The position numbers and the translations under genes are program-made. Below are positions 150-56,488 of a DNA stretch of 64,000 nt, in pieces; position 1 is the stretch's first letter, and each line of letters starts with the position of its first letter. The DNA is from an uncultured Lentisphaerota bacterium (lineage in GTDB: Bacteria; Verrucomicrobiota; Kiritimatiellia; CAIQIC01), in NCBI GenBank assembly GCA_903889245.1, contig CAISWQ010000046.1, forward strand, positions 1 through 64,000, in the 5' to 3' direction. The notes below the pieces were generated by a model. That model saw only the letters and a program-made list of their open reading frames with translations. It had not been told where the DNA came from and made no database searches.

Positions 150-1580
150 TCATTTTGCGGTAGGCTTGGCGAAGGCGTAGAGGCGCTTCATGGTGGCGAC
201 GAAGACTGCGCCGTTGGCGGCGGTGGCGGTACCGTTGATCGCGCCTTCGAGTTTGGCGGAACACAGCAGCTTCTTCTCGCGGCCGGCGGCGAAGATCAGC
301 AGCTCGCCTTTGCGCGTGCCGACGTAAACCTTGCCATCGGCGACCAGCGGCGAGGCCCAGACCTCGGCCCCGGTGTCGTGCTTCCACACAGCCTGCCCGG
401 TCGCGGCATCCACGCAATGCACGAAGTGGCCGATGTCGGTGATGTACACCAGGCCATCGGCGACCGCGGGGGTGGCGCAGGTGTGGCGTTCGAGCGCGTA
501 GCTCCAGCGCGGCGCGGTCTGGGTGACATCGCCGTGGCCGGTGACGTCGAGGCACTTGAGCCACGCCTCGCGCTTGCCCCACCACATGTCGCCGCCGCCG
601 GCCACCAAGAGGCGGCCATCGTGGAAGACCGGCATGCCGTACATGTTGGACGGGCTTTCCTTGCGGTTGCGCAGGAAGCTGTGGATGTCCTGCTTGGGCG
701 CGGCGGGATCGAAGTCGCACCACCAGACTTTTTTCAGCGTGACGGGCTCCGGGCCGGCGGCGGTCACGGTCTCGAAGGCATAGACGATGCCGTTGCCGCC
801 GCAGAAAAAGAGCAGCGGCTTGCCGTTGACCTCGCCGCAGGCGGGCGAGGACCACGTGCTGTGGAAGATGTCGGGGCCGATGCGCTCGGCGTCGCGTGCG
901 GCGAGTCGTCCGGTGGCGAGGTCGAGGCCGATCAGGCTGGGCGCGTCGGGCGCGGCGATGCCCTTGTGCGTATCGTCCACGCCATTGGAGGTGTTGAGAT
1001 AAAGAATCTCGCCGACGACCAGCGGCGCGGCGTGCGCGCTATCGTGCTGGCGGACGCCGCACTGCTGGATGTAGTCGAAGCGCCAGCGCGCGTCGCTCGC
1101 GCGCACGGAGAGCGCGCCGCCGGCCGGGCCGGCGGGATCGAGGCTCCATACCTCCCCGCGGTTGCTGACGATGTGGACGCGGCCGCCGGCGACCGTCGCG
1201 GGCGAGCAAAGGCCGACGCCGGTCCAGTCCCAGTAGACACTGTTGGTCAGCTTGGGGCAGGCGAGCTGCCAGCGGAATGCGCCGGTCTGCTCATCGAAGC
1301 ACATCAGCACGCCGCGGTCGCCGACGATCGCGGGGTCGCGCGGCGCGGCGTTGTTCGCGCCGATGAAAACGCGGCCGGCGGCGATGACCGGTGTGGCAAA
1401 GCACTGGTTGCCGAGGTCGGCGATCCACCGGACGTTGACGCGGTTGGTCGGATCCACCGTGTCCGGGAGGTTGGTCTCGGCGGAGACCAGGTTGCGCGAG
1501 AGCGGCGCGCCCCACTGCGGCTGGTCGCCCGCCTGCGCGGCCACCGTCAACACCAACGCCATCAGCCTGTTGCTTTTCAT
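150..1580 (-). CDS. Secreted PQQ-like beta-propeller repeat protein
   Basis: The 476-residue product starts MKSNRLMALVLTVAAQAG, a short signal peptide, then PQWGAP and repeated blades of the PQQ/quinoprotein type (GRVFIG, GRVHIVS, GLVYITD, GKVYVG, each followed by a D-x-x-TG-x-x-W-like turn). Such proteins form 7- or 8-bladed propellers in the periplasm. Many are scaffolds rather than PQQ dehydrogenases, and no dehydrogenase residues are evident here. A longer upstream reading frame exists, but the chosen ATG has an AGGTG ribosome-binding site and opens the signal peptide. It is divergent from the small membrane protein gene. The substrate is unknown. Confidence 0.85.
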   Translation of the reverse strand: MKSNRLMALVLTVAAQAGDQPQWGAPLSRNLVSAETNLPDTVDPTNRVNVRWIADLGNQCFATPVIAAGRVFIGANNAAPRDPAIVGDRGVLMCFDEQTGAFRWQLACPKLTNSVYWDWTGVGLCSPATVAGGRVHIVSNRGEVWSLDPAGPAGGALSVRASDARWRFDYIQQCGVRQHDSAHAAPLVVGEILYLNTSNGVDDTHKGIAAPDAPSLIGLDLATGRLAARDAERIGPDIFHSTWSSPACGEVNGKPLLFFCGGNGIVYAFETVTAAGPEPVTLKKVWWCDFDPAAPKQDIHSFLRNRKESPSNMYGMPVFHDGRLLVAGGGDMWWGKREAWLKCLDVTGHGDVTQTAPRWSYALERHTCATPAVADGLVYITDIGHFVHCVDAATGQAVWKHDTGAEVWASPLVADGKVYVGTRKGELLIFAAGREKKLLCSAKLEGAINGTATAANGAVFVATMKRLYAFAKPTAK

Positions 1581-4697: not shown

Positions 4698-4970
4698 CGC
4701 AGCCTGTGCCGTCAGCGGCACCGGCTTGGGCAGCGGTGGAGGCAGCGTCAACGCACCCGGCGCGGAGGCTGCGCCCAGCAACACACCCAACAACACCGCG
4801 CGCCCGCCGGCGATCGGACCGGAAGCCTCGAAACGGATACCCGTTATCTCCGCCGCGTATAATCCCTCGTATCTCAGCGTCGCTCCGCACCCGCTCAAGC
4901 GCCAATCCCGCGCGCCAGACAAAAATCGCACACTTGTACAAGTGTGCGATTGAGTGGGCCGGGGTTTTCC
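4698..4970. other. Intergenic region between convergent genes
   Basis: No supportable gene was found here. Short open frames on the minus strand (one would encode IAHLYKCAI through the palindrome) run antisense into the barrel gene and lack a ribosome-binding site. The only structured element is the TTGTACAA palindrome described separately. A TATAAT-like hexamer at 4859-4864 has no convincing partner or downstream gene. Confidence 0.6.
4924..4951 (-). terminator. 28-bp perfect palindrome with TTGTACAA core, probable terminator
   Basis: The two arms pair without mismatch over 14 bp (AATCGCACACTTGT and its complement). On the minus strand the stem is followed by a T-rich stretch (TTTTTGT), the form of an intrinsic terminator for the cupin gene. 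The core and the flanking ATYGCA...TGCRAT layout match the three TTGTACAA palindromes near 30 kb, so it is also a member of that repeat family. Confidence 0.55.
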
Positions 4971-6217: not shown

Positions 6218-6268
6218 GCTTTTCCAAGGCTTGGAAAAGCGGACGCCGGAGTTTTCCAAACCTTGGAA
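6218..6268. repeat. Phased palindrome array 1 (2 copies)
   Basis: Copies are centred at 6229 (23-bp perfect palindrome) and 6261 (TTCCAAACCTTGGAA), 32 bp apart. The array ends 16 bp before the deacetylase start codon. It is separated from the preceding GH78 stop by a GC hairpin. Confidence 0.9.
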
Positions 6269-6342
6269 GCCGGCGCGAGTTTCTTTTCCAATATCCTCGC
6301 GCCGCACAACCGGAACGACTGACCCCAACGAGCTAAAATCAC

Positions 6343-9034: not shown

Positions 9035-9147
9035 TTTCCAAGCATTGGAAACGGGAACCCCCGAAAGTTCCAAGCATTGGAAAAGATGGGCGGAGTTTTT
9101 TCCAAGGCTTGGAAAAATACACGCCAAATTTTCCGAGCCTTGGAAAA
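9035..9147. repeat. Phased palindrome array 2 (4 copies)
   Basis: Centres lie at 9043, 9075, 9107 and 9138, giving spacings of 32, 32 and 31 bp. The core triplets vary (GCA, GCA, GGC, then one mismatch). The array starts 1 bp after the stop codon of the Asp-box gene and ends 20 bp before the GH78 start. Confidence 0.95.
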
Positions 9148-14502: not shown

Positions 14503-15606
14503 TCAGTAGAGCAGCGCGGCGAGCCAGCGGTTACCGGTATCCGTCAGCGCCCAGCCGCCGCGCGTCGGGGTGATGAGATGGCTGCCGTTGCGGCCGAGCA
14601 CGGCGGTGTTGACGCCGCCGATGGCGTACTTCGCGCGCAGCAGCGCGACGCGCTCGGCCTCGCTGGCGAGCCGGCCCTTGAGCACAAGTCCATTCGCGGC
14701 GCAGCTCAACACCACGACTGTGCCGGCAGGGAACGGCTCGCGTGGACGCTCGCCCTCCCATAAAGCGGGATAGCGCCGGAAGAAATCGAGCGCGCGCGGC
14801 GGCTTCACCGCGAGCGTGAACGCGGCGGGCTGTGTGGCGAGGAAATCGCGGAAGCTCCCCGCCGGGTGCGCCTGCTGCCAGCGCAGGAACGCGAGCGGGT
14901 CCACGCCGGCGAGATTCTGGCCGTGGAAGTTGCCGTGGTCGGGCTTGAGCTTCTGCGCGCGATACCAGGGCGCGAACCGCTCGTTGTGCAACAGGCCGAT
15001 TTCAAAATGCACATGGCCGCGCTCGCGCGGAATCGGCGAGGACGAGGTGCGCCCCATGATGCCCAGCGGCGTCCCGGCCTGCACCACCTGGCCGGGCTTG
15101 ACGGCAATCGAGGCGAGGTGTGCGTAGAGCGTATAGACCGCGCCGACCGGGTCGGTGTGCAGCACGATCACATACTTGCCGTAGTTGGAATTTCCCGCGA
15201 TGCCGCTGGTATAACCCACCACGCCCCCGGCGACGGAGCGGACCGCGTCGGCCGGCTCGCCGCGCCGGTCGCGCTGGAGCGGCGCGATGTCAATCCCCTC
15301 GTGGAAGCGCGCCTGCCCCTTCGTGCCGCTGCGCACCGACCCGAACAAGCCGGATTCAGGATGCTGCGGCAGTGTGGGCATGAAGACGCGCAAGTCGCCT
15401 TTGAGCAGGCCGGTCTGCGCGGTCGGGAAGACGAGGTCCTGCCACACCGGCGGCGGCGGACGCGGCGGCAAGTTGGTGGGCGCCACCACCGGTTCCGGCA
15501 GCGCGGTAATCGGCTGCGGCGGCGGCAACGGCCTTTCGTTTTGACAGCCGGCGAGCACTAGGGCGGCAACGGCAGGGGAAATTTTCCAAGGATTGGAAAG
15601 TGGCAT
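14503..15606 (-). CDS. M23 (LytM-type) peptidase-domain lipoprotein
   Basis: The 367-residue product starts MPLSNPWKISP. Its lipobox VLAGC places the lipidated cysteine at residue 21, followed by a proline-rich linker. The M23 zinc ligands are visible as HEGID (His102, Asp106) and HVH (His198, His200), with YAHL between them, so it is probably a cell-wall endopeptidase or amidase activator. A helical C-terminal third follows. The chosen ATG gains its ribosome-binding site (GGAAAA, 6-7 bp upstream) from the palindrome arm. An ATG two codons earlier at 15612 is possible. The peptide SNPWK is itself encoded by a palindrome copy. Confidence 0.85.
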   Translation of the reverse strand: MPLSNPWKISPAVAALVLAGCQNERPLPPPQPITALPEPVVAPTNLPPRPPPPVWQDLVFPTAQTGLLKGDLRVFMPTLPQHPESGLFGSVRSGTKGQARFHEGIDIAPLQRDRRGEPADAVRSVAGGVVGYTSGIAGNSNYGKYVIVLHTDPVGAVYTLYAHLASIAVKPGQVVQAGTPLGIMGRTSSSPIPRERGHVHFEIGLLHNERFAPWYRAQKLKPDHGNFHGQNLAGVDPLAFLRWQQAHPAGSFRDFLATQPAAFTLAVKPPRALDFFRRYPALWEGERPREPFPAGTVVVLSCAANGLVLKGRLASEAERVALLRAKYAIGGVNTAVLGRNGSHLITPTRGGWALTDTGNRWLAALLY

Positions 15607-15630
15607 CGTCATTTTTCCAAGGATTGGAAA
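15583..15630. repeat. Phased palindrome array 3 (2 copies), overlapping a gene start
   Basis: Centres lie at 15591 and 15622, 31 bp apart; both copies have GGA in the centre. One copy lies inside the lipoprotein coding sequence and one sits directly against the glnS stop codon. This is the only array that extends into a reading frame. Confidence 0.9.
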
Positions 15631-20143: not shown

Positions 20144-20224
20144 TTTCCAAGGTTTGGAAAAGATAACGGCGGAAGTTTCCAAACATTGGAAACTTTCGCG
20201 AGGTTTTTTCCAAGGCTTGGAAAA
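20144..20224. repeat. Phased palindrome array 4 (3 copies)
   Basis: Centres lie at 20152, 20184 and 20215, with spacings of 32 and 31 bp. The middle copy is a 21-bp perfect-arm palindrome with an ACA centre. The first copy starts only 5 bp from the GH5-like start codon. Confidence 0.95.
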
Positions 20225-22639: not shown

Positions 22640-22783
22640 ATTTTTCCAAGCCTTGGAAAAATCACCGCCGCACTTTCCAAGGCTTGGAAAAGTTTTGCCA
22701 GCTTTTTCCAAGTCTTGGAACTTTTTCTGCGAAATCTTCCAATGCTTGGGAAACGCACCGGTTTCACCTTCCAATCATTGGAA
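22640..22783. repeat. Phased palindrome array 5 (5 copies)
   Basis: Centres lie at 22651, 22682, 22713, 22744 and 22776, with spacings of 31, 31, 31 and 32 bp. This is the longest array and lies between the divergent GH78 and sulfatase genes. The first copy is a 23-bp perfect palindrome and the fourth has one extra G in the right arm. Confidence 0.95.
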
Positions 22784-27266: not shown

Positions 27267-28136
27267 TCAGTGACGCCCCTTTGCGGGGTCTTGTCGCGCC
27301 AGCAGTATTTGTGGATCGACAATCCATCCCTCGAAAACATCGCAGTCACCGGGGATGCCGTGCGGAGGCTTCTTGCAGCGTGCCGACCAGGCCGCTTGCA
27401 CAACGCACAGCACAGCATCGAGCGCATCGCCTGTCGGGTCTGCTTCCGCCAAGGTTCGCGCTGCCTGGGAGAGCTGAAGCTGCAAGCCATAATCAAGGGT
27501 GATGCGTGTCTGTAGATTGTCCAGAATCCTGATCCGCGTAACTTTGTGCTCCGCCGTTTGTCGACGGCGTTCATCGGCCTTGTACTTTCCGCCAGCCGCG
27601 TACCGCTGTGCCACCAATTTGGGATAAGCCTCCACTGCCACACGGGCATCGGCTTGCGGATTCATTGGCAGGGCAGATACGCCCGCCTGAAGAAGTCGAG
27701 GAACGCCACCAAAAAACATTTTCGCCACGGGAACACCGTAAAGCATCATCGGACTGCACGATCTGGCGAGGCGATCGGTTTCCCGCATATGATGCCGGTC
27801 ACCATATGATCGCTGCGTTCGATACTTGGTCAGCCAAGCCGCAAATCCATGTGCGTCGAGCTGTGAAACCCAGCGTACGAAAGTCATCCAATCTTCATGC
27901 CCTCTGCCCTGTTCGGCCAGCAAGCGGCGCGGTTGCCCAAAAGGGAAATCAAACCCGGCCCACCATGGGCCGGGACGTTGCAGGAAGAGTTCAAAATCGG
28001 CAAATGAACAGAACCGCTCCACGTACTCCACATTCAAACAGACGCCATCGAGATAAGCTGATGCACAGGTGATGGGTTTGGCAACGCTGGGTGCGCTGGT
28101 GAAATCGAGCCCATAAACTTTAAGCACCATACTCAT
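27267..28136 (-). CDS. DUF429-domain protein (predicted RNase H-like fold)
   Basis: The 289-residue cytoplasmic protein opens with VYGLDFTSAPSVAKPITCA. The G-x-D-F-[ST]-S-A-P plus KPI pattern is typical of DUF429, which is predicted to be an RNase H-like nuclease. Further conserved stretches are GFDFPFG, EAYPKL and GDALDAVLC near the end. No signal peptide is present, unlike its neighbours. Its start overlaps the sulfatase stop by ATGA. The role in a sulfatase operon is unclear. Confidence 0.75.
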   Translation of the reverse strand: MSMVLKVYGLDFTSAPSVAKPITCASAYLDGVCLNVEYVERFCSFADFELFLQRPGPWWAGFDFPFGQPRRLLAEQGRGHEDWMTFVRWVSQLDAHGFAAWLTKYRTQRSYGDRHHMRETDRLARSCSPMMLYGVPVAKMFFGGVPRLLQAGVSALPMNPQADARVAVEAYPKLVAQRYAAGGKYKADERRRQTAEHKVTRIRILDNLQTRITLDYGLQLQLSQAARTLAEADPTGDALDAVLCVVQAAWSARCKKPPHGIPGDCDVFEGWIVDPQILLARQDPAKGRH

Positions 28137-29701
28137 TTTTGTTTCTTCAGCTTCAGCTCGTCCATCCGCGCTTGCATGCGCGCGGCGATATCGGGATGCT
28201 GCGCGATGACATTGGTGTGCTCCGGCAGGTCGTCCTTGAGGTTATAGAGCTGGGCGGTGGGCGCGTCAGGCTTCACCTTGCCATCGGCGGTGATGTCGCT
28301 GTTGACCAGGCCGAGCTGCACGTAGGGCGCGCCCCACTGCGGGCCGGTCGGCACCTGTACGGTCATGCCGGCGGAACCTTGCTTGGGGATATAGAGCCAG
28401 TCGCCCTGGCGCAGCGCATGGCCGCCGGTGCCGAGGAACGACGCCTCGGTGCGCTTCACCGGCGCGTGCGCCGGATCGATGAACGCCGCGAGCTCGCTCG
28501 CGCCATCGGGCGAGGCTCCGTCGGGCAGCTTCGCGCCCACGGCCTCGGCCAGCGTCGCCATGCAGTCCACCTGTGTGAACATAGGCTGGCGGATACTGCC
28601 CGCCGGGATGCGGCCGGGCCAGCGCGCGAGCAGCGGTACGCGATGCCCGCCTTCCCAAGCATCGGTCTTCTGCCCGAGCAGCACGCCGTTGGGCCGGTGG
28701 GCCGAGGTCAGCACGTCGTTGTTGAGTACGGCGCCGTTGTCGCTGGTGAAGATGACCAGTGTGTTCTGCGCGAGGCCCCGCTGCTCCAGCGCATCGAGTA
28801 CCGTGCCCAGGCAATGATCGAGCTGCTGGATGTAATCGCCGTAGAGCTTGACGCCGCTCTGGCCGCGGAATTCCGGCGCGGGATCGATCGGCACATGCGG
28901 CGCGGCAAACGCGAGATAGAGGAAGAACGGCGTGTCTTTCGTCTGCTGCGCGAAGAATTGTACCGCCTTCTCCGCGAGGATGAAGTCGATCCGGTCATCG
29001 GGCCGCGCCTGCTGCGCCGCCTTGCCACCGCTCATCACGCCGTGCGGGCCTTTCGATTTATCCACGCGGATCGGGTCGGTGGGGTCGAGGCCCACGACGC
29101 GGTGGTTCTCGACGAAGACCAGCGGTGGCTCGTTGTGCGTCCGCGGCGTGCCGAAGAAATAGTCGAAGCCGATCTCCAGCGGCCCCGGCTTCAGCTCCTG
29201 ATTCCAGTCCGGATCGCCGTTGCGCCCGAACCCGTTGTGCCACTTGCCGAGCGCGGCCGTGCGGTAGCCGGCGGATTTCAGCAGCGATGGCAGCGTGACC
29301 TGGCCCTCGTGAAAATAGAGTGAGTAGTCGTTCTTGCGCTTCGCGTGCTGGAGCAACGTGCCGGAGAGAATCGCGTAGCGCGAGGGATTGCAGACGCCGC
29401 ACGTCGAGTGCGCGTCGGTGAACCGCACGCCGTCGCGCGCGAGCTGGTCCATGCGCGGCGTCTTGATTTTCGTCGCGCCATAGCAGCCCACGTCTCCGGC
29501 GCCGAGATCATCGGCGATGATGAATAGGATGTTGGGTCGTGGGGTTGGCGGTGTGGCCGCTGTACACGCCAACGCCAAACCCAGCATCACCAGCCCTGCA
29601 ATCCGGCGACCGCCATGCGCTGGGCACAACCACCGCTGCGCGTGGACCACCCTTGTCGCCACCAGCGCTCCTCCCCTCCAACCGCTCTGCGTATTATTCA
29701 T
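28133..29701 (-). CDS. Secreted sulfatase (S1 family)
   Basis: The 522-residue product has an N-terminal extension of about 30 residues before a hydrophobic signal (IAGLVMLGLALACTA). IIADDLGAGD (Asp64, Asp65) and CNPSR (Cys104) mark the active site; GKWHNG and FTSDNGA follow. KLYNLKDDLPEHTN-like text near the C-terminus is the usual S1 ending. AAGGAA supports the ATG, but a start closer to the signal (Met39) is possible. It is coupled to the DUF429 gene. Confidence 0.92.
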   Translation of the reverse strand: MNNTQSGWRGGALVATRVVHAQRWLCPAHGGRRIAGLVMLGLALACTAATPPTPRPNILFIIADDLGAGDVGCYGATKIKTPRMDQLARDGVRFTDAHSTCGVCNPSRYAILSGTLLQHAKRKNDYSLYFHEGQVTLPSLLKSAGYRTAALGKWHNGFGRNGDPDWNQELKPGPLEIGFDYFFGTPRTHNEPPLVFVENHRVVGLDPTDPIRVDKSKGPHGVMSGGKAAQQARPDDRIDFILAEKAVQFFAQQTKDTPFFLYLAFAAPHVPIDPAPEFRGQSGVKLYGDYIQQLDHCLGTVLDALEQRGLAQNTLVIFTSDNGAVLNNDVLTSAHRPNGVLLGQKTDAWEGGHRVPLLARWPGRIPAGSIRQPMFTQVDCMATLAEAVGAKLPDGASPDGASELAAFIDPAHAPVKRTEASFLGTGGHALRQGDWLYIPKQGSAGMTVQVPTGPQWGAPYVQLGLVNSDITADGKVKPDAPTAQLYNLKDDLPEHTNVIAQHPDIAARMQARMDELKLKKQK

Positions 29702-29775
29702 ATTCCTTAACCTCGGGGTACGCGCAGCCTCCCCGGCCGCGGCCGGCTGCTCTGTTAATACAGCACCCATCTTCC

Positions 29776-29819
29776 GCGAGGATAATTGCAGAGTTGTACA
29801 ACTCTGCAATTATCCTCGC
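29776..29819. repeat. 44-bp perfect palindrome, TTGTACAA family copy A
   Basis: The centre is at 29797/29798 and all 22 base pairs match. The inner 26 bp are the family core (ATTGCAGAGTTGT and complement). The outer nine on each side (GCGAGGATA) are an inverted copy of flanking sequence. The stop codon of the winged-helix gene lies inside it (29810-29812). Confidence 0.95.
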
Positions 29820-30448
29820 CGCCATTCCTGGCGCACCAGCTCAAACAATTCATCATGCAGCGGTGTTCGCATGGTCTTGTTCAAACCGAACGCGATGGTT
29901 TTTTTCTTCCGGGTACGGCTCACGTAACCCCTGCGCGCCAGTTTGGCCATGTGCCGGCTGACGGCCGCCTCCGACATCCGCAAGGTGCCGGTCAGAACGT
30001 CAACACGCGCCTCCCGGCCTTTGCTCAAGTGCCGCAGCAACTGCAGACGCCGCACATTGGTAAAAGCCGTGGCCGCCTCGAAGATCAGGGCCTGCACCTT
30101 CGCGGCGGGGGAAGGATCATTGCAGAGTTGTACAACTCTGCAATGATGCAGGGCTTGGTCGGGATGCTTGAGCAGACCCAAGACCCAGGCCGAGACCCGC
30201 CCACTAAACGTTCGCTGGCCATAGGGTGAGCGCGGCTGGCAGTAGGCCCACACGCCCGAGCGCCGTTGCTGGATCAGGCCGGCTGACACCAAGCGCCGGA
30301 TCTGTGTTGATACGACATAGAGTGGCAACTGGAGTTCTGCCGCCAAGGCCGAGGGCGACAGCTCTTCGCCCCTGGCCAGGCATGACAGCAAAGCCAAGCG
30401 GGTCTGACACGCCAGCGCCCGCGCCACCTGCATGATGATTTCGTCCAT
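29810..30448 (-). CDS. Double winged-helix (ArsR/MarR-like) transcription regulator with a palindrome-encoded linker
   Basis: The 212-residue product holds two homologous HTH domains. The first (about residues 3-70) contains TRLALLSCLARGEELS and the second (about 112-185) VRRLQLLRHLSKGRE followed by AAVSRHMAKLARRGYVSR. Each has the helix-turn-helix plus wing of ArsR-type regulators. The linker includes HHCRVVQLCND, which is the translation of a TTGTACAA palindrome. The start is uncertain: an ATG at 30490 would add IAELYNSAI, again palindrome-encoded, and a TTG at 30580 is also in frame. No good ribosome-binding site marks any of them. Confidence 0.7.
   Translation of the reverse strand: MDEIIMQVARALACQTRLALLSCLARGEELSPSALAAELQLPLYVVSTQIRRLVSAGLIQQRRSGVWAYCQPRSPYGQRTFSGRVSAWVLGLLKHPDQALHHCRVVQLCNDPSPAAKVQALIFEAATAFTNVRRLQLLRHLSKGREARVDVLTGTLRMSEAAVSRHMAKLARRGYVSRTRKKKTIAFGLNKTMRTPLHDELFELVRQEWRRG
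30116..30147. repeat. 32-bp perfect palindrome, TTGTACAA family copy B, inside a coding sequence
   Basis: The centre is at 30131/30132. The same 26-bp core as copies A and C is present, flanked by ATC and GAT. It lies in frame between the two DNA-binding domains of the regulator. Confidence 0.95.
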
Positions 30449-30461
30449 AGCGGGCTGCATA

Positions 30462-30487
30462 ATTGCAGAGTTGTACAACTCTGCAAT
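30462..30487. repeat. 26-bp perfect palindrome, TTGTACAA family copy C
   Basis: The centre is at 30474/30475. It lies just before the most likely start of the regulator gene and remains open in that frame, encoding IAELYNSAI if translation starts at 30490. Confidence 0.95.
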
Positions 30488-30590
30488 CATTATTTCTGCT
30501 GGGCGATCACGATGCGCCCCGTGGCGAAAGGCAAACAACCGGAGCGTTCCGGTGCCAGAAGCACACGTGTGCGCTGACAAGGTTCTTCGT

Positions 30591-30601
30591 GGGGGGGGGG
30601 G
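30591..30601. repeat. Run of eleven G
   Basis: A homopolymer between the regulator and the next sulfatase stop. It could be a length-variable tract or an assembly error, and no reading frame crosses it. Confidence 0.6.
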
Positions 30602-30617
30602 CTATCGGGTCTGATCG

Positions 30618-32096
30618 TCAGCGGATTTTCTGGTCGGGCAGTTCGGGTTTGATGCCCTGGTCGAGCGGCATGGTGTCCTTGTCCGGCGTCAGCCCCGCGG
30701 TGGCCATCAGCGCGGCGAGCTGCGCCTCCAGCCTGGCGCGGGTGGCCGCGTGCTGCGGCACGGCGGCAAGGTTGTGCAGTTCACCAGGATCGGCGGTCAG
30801 TTGATAGAACTCCGGCTGATGCCGGTCGGGTTTGCCATCGCCATGCGGGTAGCGGATGAATTTCCACTCGTCGGTGCGCAGCCCGCGCACGTTCGGCGTG
30901 TAGGGGAACTGTTTCTCGTAGTTATATTCGTAGAACCACGCGGTCCGCCACGCGCTGTCGCCCGCGTTCGCCAGCTTGACCCACGACCGGCCCTGAATGT
31001 TCGCGAACGCCGGCACACCGCACAGCTCCAGCACGCTCGGCGCGATATCCAGCGTGAGCGCCTGCTGCGCGATGACCTTGCCCGCCGGCAGGCCGGGGCC
31101 GCGCGCGATCAGCGGAATGCGGATGCTCGGCTCGTGCATAGTGCGCTTATCCACCATGCCGTGCTCGCCCTCGAGCAGGCCGTTGTCGCCCATGAAAACA
31201 ATCAGCGTGCGCTCAAGCTGGCCGCTCGCGCGCAGAAACTCCACGAGCCGGCCGACGCTGTCATCCACGCTCAAGATCGTGCCCCAGTAAGCGTGGACCA
31301 TGTTCTCGAAATCCTTGACCGCCTCCGGCCGGCTGTCGGGAAATTTTTTGCGCCAGTCGAACAGCGGCCCGTAGATGCCGTGCCACGTCGTCAACCGCTG
31401 GCGGATCCACTCCGGCTTGTCGTCTAGCATGAATGCGCTCGCCGGGTACGGCACGCGGACGGCGTCGAACGCGTGCGCGTATTTCGGCTCCGGAAAATAG
31501 AACGAGTGCGGCGCCTTGTGGCCGAGGCACAGCGCCCACGGCTGGCCCGCCGCGCGCTGCTTGAGCCAGTCGAGCGCGTAGTCGGTGACGACCGTGGTGT
31601 AGTAGCCCGGCGGCGTCTCGCGCCGCTGGCCGTTCACGCACCACTCGGTGTCGAAATATTTGCCCTGCCCCTTGTGCGTGATGAACCAGTCGAAGCCCGG
31701 TCGCGGCGCGTCGTTGTTCTCGCCCATGTGCCACTTGCCGATGTAGGCCGTCGCGTAGCCCTGCTCGTGCAGCCGGCCCGGCCAGTGCGGCAGCGCGCCG
31801 GGCAGCTCGGTGAAGTTGTCGCGCACGCCGTGCCGGTGCGCATAGAGGCCGGTCAGGATGCTCGCGCGGCTCGGCGAGCACAGCGACGTCGTGCAGAACG
31901 TGTTCGCAAAGCGGACGCCGCCAGCGGCGAGCGCGTCAATGTTGGGCGTCCGCACGTGCGGCGAGCCGTAGCAGCCGAGCGCTGCCGGCCGCAGATCGTC
32001 GCAGAGGATGAACAGCACATTCGGCGGCGCGCCCCGACAGCTCAACGCGGAAGCGCCCAGCAGACCGAGGGCGCAGAGGAGGGTTTTCATGTTCAT
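30618..32096 (-). CDS. Secreted sulfatase (S1 family)
   Basis: The 492-residue product starts [24 protein letters not shown] carries the metal aspartates (33, 34), and CSPSR places the formylglycine cysteine at residue 73. [20 protein letters not shown] and [13 protein letters not shown] follow; the last is shared with iduronate- and mucin-type sulfatases. It acts on a sulfated sugar outside the cytoplasm. The upstream gap contains array 6. The ATG two codons later is an alternative start. Confidence 0.93.
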
Positions 32097-32130: not shown

Positions 32131-32209
32131 TTTCCAAGCCCTGGAAATTTTCACGCAAATTTTTCCAAGCCTTGGAAAAAGCCGCGCGAAATTTTCCAAG
32201 GCTTGGAAA
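32131..32209. repeat. Phased palindrome array 6 (3 copies)
   Basis: Centres lie at 32139, 32170 and 32201, spaced 31 and 31 bp. The copy nearest the sulfatase has one arm mismatch. The array starts 8 bp after the URO-D gene stop. Confidence 0.95.
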
Positions 32210-36779: not shown

Positions 36780-36863
36780 TTTCCAAACATTGGAAAAGAC
36801 ATGGCCACATTTTTCCAAGGATTGGAAAAAATGAACAGCCCATTTTCCAAACCTTGGAAAATG
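36780..36863. repeat. Phased palindrome array 7 (3 copies)
   Basis: Centres lie at 36788, 36820 and 36852, both spacings 32 bp. The last copy (23-bp perfect arms around an odd centre) touches the sulfatase stop codon with no gap. Confidence 0.95.
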
Positions 36864-40117: not shown

Positions 40118-40197
40118 TTTTCCAAGGCTTGGAAAAATAGCGCGTCCGTTTTCCAAGGCTTGGAAAAAACGCCCAAACTTTTTCCGAGCCCTGGAAA
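40118..40197. repeat. Phased palindrome array 8 (3 copies)
   Basis: Centres lie at 40127, 40158 and 40189, both spacings 31 bp. The third copy has two arm mismatches. The array begins 4 bp after the preceding stop codon. Confidence 0.95.
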
Positions 40198-48573: not shown

Positions 48574-48653
48574 GTTTCCAAGGCTTGGAAACGGAACACA
48601 AGTGTTTTCCGGGACTTGGAAAAGCTCATAAAAGTTTTTCCAAGGCTTGGAAA
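48574..48653. repeat. Phased palindrome array 9 (3 copies)
   Basis: Centres lie at 48583, 48614 and 48645, both spacings 31 bp. The middle copy has a degenerate core (CCGGGACTTGG). The array starts 6 bp after the GH106 stop codon. Confidence 0.93.
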
Positions 48654-54356: not shown

Positions 54357-54385
54357 CGTCGTTTTCCAAGCCTTGGAAAACGACG
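54357..54385. repeat. Single 29-bp perfect palindrome of the TTCCAA-N3-TTGGAA family
   Basis: The centre is at 54371; arms extend to CGTCGTTTTCCAAG, the longest in the family. It is 4 bp after the sulfatase stop and 29 bp before the GTG of the next gene. It is the only gap of this kind with one copy. Confidence 0.95.
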
Positions 54386-56408: not shown

Positions 56409-56488
56409 TTTCCAAGGCTTGGAAAAAATTCCGTGAAATTTCCCAAGCCTTGGAAAAAACACACCGCGCGCTTTCCAATGTCTGGAAA
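56409..56488. repeat. Phased palindrome array 10 (3 copies)
   Basis: Centres lie at 56417, 56448 and 56480, spacings 31 and 32 bp. The second copy has an additional C in its left arm and the third an imperfect centre. The array starts 5 bp after the sulfatase stop codon. Confidence 0.93.

Follow-up and report, generated by a model that had tools for sequence, protein, structure and literature searches.

Palindromes in and around a tandem-ArsR gene as putative private operators that co-diverge with their regulators

Operators of ArsR-family repressors are 12-2-12 repeats placed near or within their target genes, and the site of AzuR is placed 36 nt before the start (PMC8790569). Rickettsia palindromic elements are about 150 bp long and are found in many unrelated genes (PMC10969869). 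In repressor-stoperator systems, one repressor is served by many dispersed sites, which lie chiefly in short intergenic regions and are asymmetric, with one orientation to transcription. REP sequences are dispersed extragenic palindromes tied to genes of RAYT (Y1) transposases, which are flanked by the same palindromes. The locus described here resembles each of these systems in part.

The window, that is, the whole stretch of DNA analysed, comprised 64,000 nucleotides. The 26-bp perfect palindrome ATTGCAGAGTTGTACAACTCTGCAAT occurred in it exactly three times, within about 700 bp, as claimed in an earlier note (coordinates in Table 1). Shuffles of the window gave an expectation of 0 matches, even with 3 mismatches allowed, and the three palindromes at the regulator are confirmed as real, far above chance. 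The same note had placed one copy over the stop codon and one between the two helix-turn-helix domains, and both placements were borne out: the winged-helix gene had its TAA overlapped by copy 1, while copy 2 was read in frame in the linker as HHCRVVQLCND. It had also placed one copy at the start and stated that the frame stays open through every copy with the addition of a peptide. The open frame stood for the linker copy. At the start, the open frame was an annotation artefact and the peptide IAELYNSAI the product of a mechanical upstream TTG start. In the homologue alignment all close relatives begin at Met 30448; since homologues align from this residue onward, copy 3 is upstream, non-coding DNA. 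A search around copy 3 gave no sigma-70-like promoter, and by inspection no single helical phase was seen for the three sites at their spacings of 334-360.

Table 1. Positions in the window of the regulator gene and of the palindromes
Feature	Position	Strand	Basis or remark
Regulator gene (212 aa), two ArsR/SmtB-type winged-helix domains in tandem	29810..30448	minus	Met 30448; TAA at 29812-29810
Palindrome copy 1, perfect over 44 bp, across TAA stop codon	29776..29819 (core 29785-29810)	none	Symmetry extension
Palindrome copy 2, 32 bp perfect, linker between winged-helix domains	30116..30147 (core 30119-30144)	none	Symmetry extension
Palindrome copy 3, perfect over 26 bp, 14-39 bases ahead of start codon, centre -26	30462..30487	none	Symmetry and start alignment
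Dispersed palindrome AATCGCACACTTGTACAAGTGTGCGATT, sub-type of paralogue C33b	4924..4951	none	Convergent gap between predicted genes
Arrays of the second palindrome set	6221-6301, 9035-9146, 15583-15630, 20144-20223, 22643-22711, 32131-32209, 36780-36860, 40119-40166, 48575-48653, 54363-54379, 56409-56478		

Two ArsR/SmtB winged-helix domains are fused in the encoded protein (Pfam HTH_5/MarR_2 and NCBIfam HTH_metalloreg, in two stretches). NF033788 scored above its cut-off in two stretches, and PDB ArsR chains were matched by both sequence and fold. The AlphaFold model had a pLDDT of 94.6 and a pTM of 0.89, with residues 101-110, the linker that carries the palindrome-coded peptide, as its sole low-confidence block. 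In Foldseek searches single domains retrieved ArsR chains and the double arrangement retrieved SarS, weakly. SarS-type proteins (PDB 1p4x) likewise have two winged-helix domains per chain, but the likeness was confined to the fold (Foldseek E 2.2e-03, TM about 0.3) and the Sar family was not otherwise indicated. PADLOC and PHROGs gave generic winged-helix matches, which were rejected. With the SmtB and AzuR repressors (PMC8790569) the protein shares the fold and NCBIfam model, a 26-bp inverted repeat and the distance of the site, some 30-40 nt, from the start codon that follows it. It differs from them in its two fused domains, in the three sites in and around its own gene, in the many near-perfect dispersed sites and in the parallel paralogues with private sites.

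Sulfatase genes (Pfam PF00884) flank the regulator on both sides (window 28133-32096), in a long run of predicted genes mostly on one strand. No tRNA genes were found in the window. A second palindrome set, TTTCCAAGGCTTGGAAA and variants, was arranged in short tandem arrays with a spacing of about 31-32 bp. Of its 59 motif hits 55 were intergenic, and it has the look of a further system of operators or repeats.

A profile search returned 13 full-length members in three genomes of one genus (the present genome, G002 and G003) and four in the Planctomycetota MAG G057. Among 388 sampled genomes of the phylum, full-length members were confined to the present genus; the same-genus genome G001 contained neither a full-length regulator nor sites of the CACACYTNNNNARGTGTG or C91 pattern. 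Plasmid homologues of paralogue C91 were sought and gave no match. Counted from Met1, 13/13 of the relatives had palindromes near -33, in the linker at +302..317 (about +310) and at the stop at +648..668 (about +652); 34 of the 39 slots were filled. The upstream palindrome was of 26 bp and centred at about -33 in 11/13 members; the linker site, absent from three of the 13, was centred at 302, 308 or 317, in one codon phase throughout. Upstream and stop-side sites were kept in three of the four G057 members and the linker site in none; one of these four, L104, had no palindrome at any slot.

Two smaller arrangements were also noted. L075 (G002:C189) matched profile positions 1-111 only, with palindromes at -37 and +299 followed by a stop, and could be a member whose second domain was lost between two sites. 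In G057, L108 and L109 are single winged-helix genes of about 97-99 aa ringed by repeated near-perfect palindromes with half-sites TCAATCATTCTA and GTTCTGACGTTCTT; given these, the gene-plus-palindrome arrangement may extend beyond tandem proteins.

Palindromes were nearly identical within one gene (0.83 differences per 12 bp) and unlike between genes (4.06). Site distance tracked protein distance (Mantel r 0.73, p 0.0002), and did so too when clade II was taken by itself (r 0.60, p 0.0006). In the tree, C91, C165 and C180, which carry ATCCCGGACTT, clustered with the present gene, and C33a was grouped with C42, both with TCGCACACCT. The half-site of paralogue C33b was AATCGCACACTTGT and the site of paralogue C91 was ATCCCGGACTTTT. 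G002:C35 and G003:C177 are syntenic orthologues with flanks about 82-83% identical and proteins 51.7% identical; their palindromes differ, being ATTTCACACCTGT and ATTCCACACCTTG, respectively.

A genome search for the 26-mer, suggested in the earlier note, established that it was not unique to the locus: six exact copies of ATTGCAGAGTTGTACAACTCTGCAAT were found in total, three of them outside the regulator locus. Altered versions were present at C108 (two symmetrical changes) and at C18 and C1 (TG-centred). Dispersed copies existed for each sub-type. With the regulators' own sites included, CACACYTNNNNARGTGTG was counted 58 times in the present genome, 22 in G003, 10 in G002 and 0 in G001 (reversed-pattern controls 0), and the C91 type 10, 11, 6 and 0 times in the same order (controls 0). 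The CATACTTG type occurred 14 times in G057 (controls 0). The 1.084 Mb of own DNA sampled held 13 palindromes that were perfect over 26 bp, and all 13 fell into these families (mirror control 0). Genes behind the dispersed-site counts were called with a home-made hexamer finder that misses some regulators, so the following counts carry a degree of error: 42 of 45 dispersed own sites were intergenic, in DNA that was 87% coding; convergent gaps held 13 of these 42 against 14% expected (p 0.006); and a gene 3' end was nearest for 69% of dispersed sites against 48% expected (p 0.008). Dispersed sites shared up to 33-34 bp.

Sequence comparison demonstrates conservation of position for a few dispersed sites, not for most. 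An intragenic palindrome in a GH13-like gene occupied the same ungapped codon in the present genome and G003, with different arms. The gap between an HPPK-like gene and a phosphoribosyltransferase gene held sites in the present genome and G003, and G002 had one at the matching place. Four of the eight CACACYT-type non-regulator sites of G002 shared an orthologous gap with a G003 site, although one of these four pairs lay in nearly identical DNA and for two the alignment did not demonstrate a common position. For other sites of G002 and G003, the orthologous neighbours in the present genome had no site. The genes beside position-conserved sites showed no common theme, their functions being unrelated. 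Three candidates were rejected: L153/L144 as strong site conservation (the whole gap is 98.8% identical and hence uninformative), the 188-bp spacing shared by L112 and L114 as a larger element (the interior is not homologous), and GAGTTGTGCAACTC matches in G003 and G046 (no palindromic arms, chance).

Taken on this evidence, the palindromes are probably private 12-2-12-type operators of autoregulating tandem-ArsR proteins, which co-diverge with their sites. The evidence agrees best with the second idea in the earlier note, binding of the regulator to its own gene by way of these sites, and binding is inferred. The sites are fully symmetric and each chain has two unlike heads, which argues for a homodimer reading both halves; such a dimer would bring four DNA-reading heads to the 12-2-12-type palindrome and read both of its half-sites, each of 12-13 bp. 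With the site immediately ahead of the start occupied, transcription of the regulator itself would be repressed. The linker and stop-codon copies would serve as extra sites, through cooperative binding, looping or blocking of the elongating polymerase. Paralogues of one genome carry different palindromes in the corresponding places, so proteins and sites diverge together. The dispersed copies, most of which closely follow a gene, would add to the sites of these proteins.

Several results count against private operators: copy 3 gave no nearby sigma-70-like promoter, dispersed sites favour gene 3' ends over promoters, the neighbours of position-conserved sites have no theme in common, and the linker site is missing from three members and from those of Planctomycetota. 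The odd codon usage of the regulators and the absence of one from a syntenic gap are not needed by simple autoregulation. Simple autoregulation likewise does not explain the bias to gene ends, the lack of a target theme, palindromes of more than 50 bp or the cores found in other MAGs. At L114 (about 4122), L072 (about 1465) and L117 (about 4028), perfect symmetry extended over 44-52 bp, beyond the need of a dimer footprint, with outer arms private to the locus. Identical or near-identical palindrome cores were seen in Candidatus Brocadiia and Planctomycetota MAGs at L045 (571-616), L046 (3445-3488) and L041 (1-46), with outer arms that differ and are symmetrical; the search of the Brocadiia MAG gave no tandem-ArsR gene. 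These unexplained features keep two further readings alive.

The first, possible but doubtful, is a set of chromosomal, parallel and mutually insulated repressor-site networks, in which each tandem-ArsR protein, evolving fast, would control its own gene by three embedded sites and also mark gene ends with stoperator-like roadblocks. Protein and sites would shift specificity together, and the unit may spread between loci and phyla. As in repressor-stoperator systems, many dispersed sites, chiefly intergenic, match the site at the regulator. Here, in contrast, the sites are palindromic rather than asymmetric and in one orientation, the system is chromosomal, the regulators are several and parallel, and the fold is tandem ArsR.

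The second, which we consider unlikely, is a self-spreading cassette. The tandem-ArsR gene would move or be copied as one unit with its palindromes, much as RAYT genes and REP sequences do in function, and the dispersed palindromes would be offspring with no regulatory role. The placement of dispersed sites between genes and near 3' ends, the up to 33-34 bp that they share and the cores in Brocadiia and Planctomycetota MAGs are consistent with this. The regulators have a rare and patchy distribution, the codon score of each of the seven full-length own ones was at or below the 1st percentile, and the G003:C5 regulator was missing from the syntenic gap in the present genome. However, syntenic orthology between G002 and G003 holds for two regulators, some sites hold their position across species while the sequence changes, and the linker site is not an insertion. 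Membership of the RAYT/REP class was rejected: the dispersed palindromes are linked to a gene with the same palindromes at its flanks, but that gene encodes a winged-helix protein, no transposase lies beside the regulators and the genome gave only two weak Y1 matches, both elsewhere.

RNA hairpins, acting as transcription terminators or mRNA 3' structures, are very improbable. The stems are perfect and often stand shortly after genes, and a T-rich tail follows copy 3 on the plus strand, but that tail is opposite to the strand of the gene. Intrinsic terminators were rejected as T content after sites was hardly raised (25% against a background of 21%). Rfam gave no match, and within a sub-type it is the sequence, not pairing alone, that stays constant, and this sequence follows the protein.

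The mobile, in-frame insertion proposed in the earlier note, of the kind seen in Rickettsia palindromic elements or MITEs, is scarcely credible, for although copies of the 26-mer are dispersed, three intragenic palindromes occur elsewhere and the frame is open through the linker copy, the stretch between the invariant residues G65 and T127 measured 58-65 residues with and without a linker palindrome alike. Palindrome-free linkers are not shorter, so nothing was inserted there; this answers the homologue alignment proposed in that note, which took absence of the peptide from relatives as support. Different, gene-specific palindromes occupy the same place and codon phase in homologues, the unrelated GH13-like gene repeats this pattern in two species, GH32 homologues of known structure have no gap at the C1 palindrome, and dispersed own sites are nearly all intergenic. 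The likeness to Rickettsia palindromic elements is palindromic DNA read in frame within a gene; the present palindromes are of 26-44 bp, not about 150 bp, and are mostly intergenic rather than spread through many unrelated genes.

As private operators, the palindromes and their regulators would offer a natural experiment on changes of specificity that a regulator makes in step with its entire set of sites. The material comprises several paralogues per genome, three sites in and around each gene as a built-in readout of specificity, dispersed sites, and syntenic orthologue pairs with shifted sites. The gene appears to list its own operator, and the specificities of many winged-helix proteins could therefore be read from sequence and tested.
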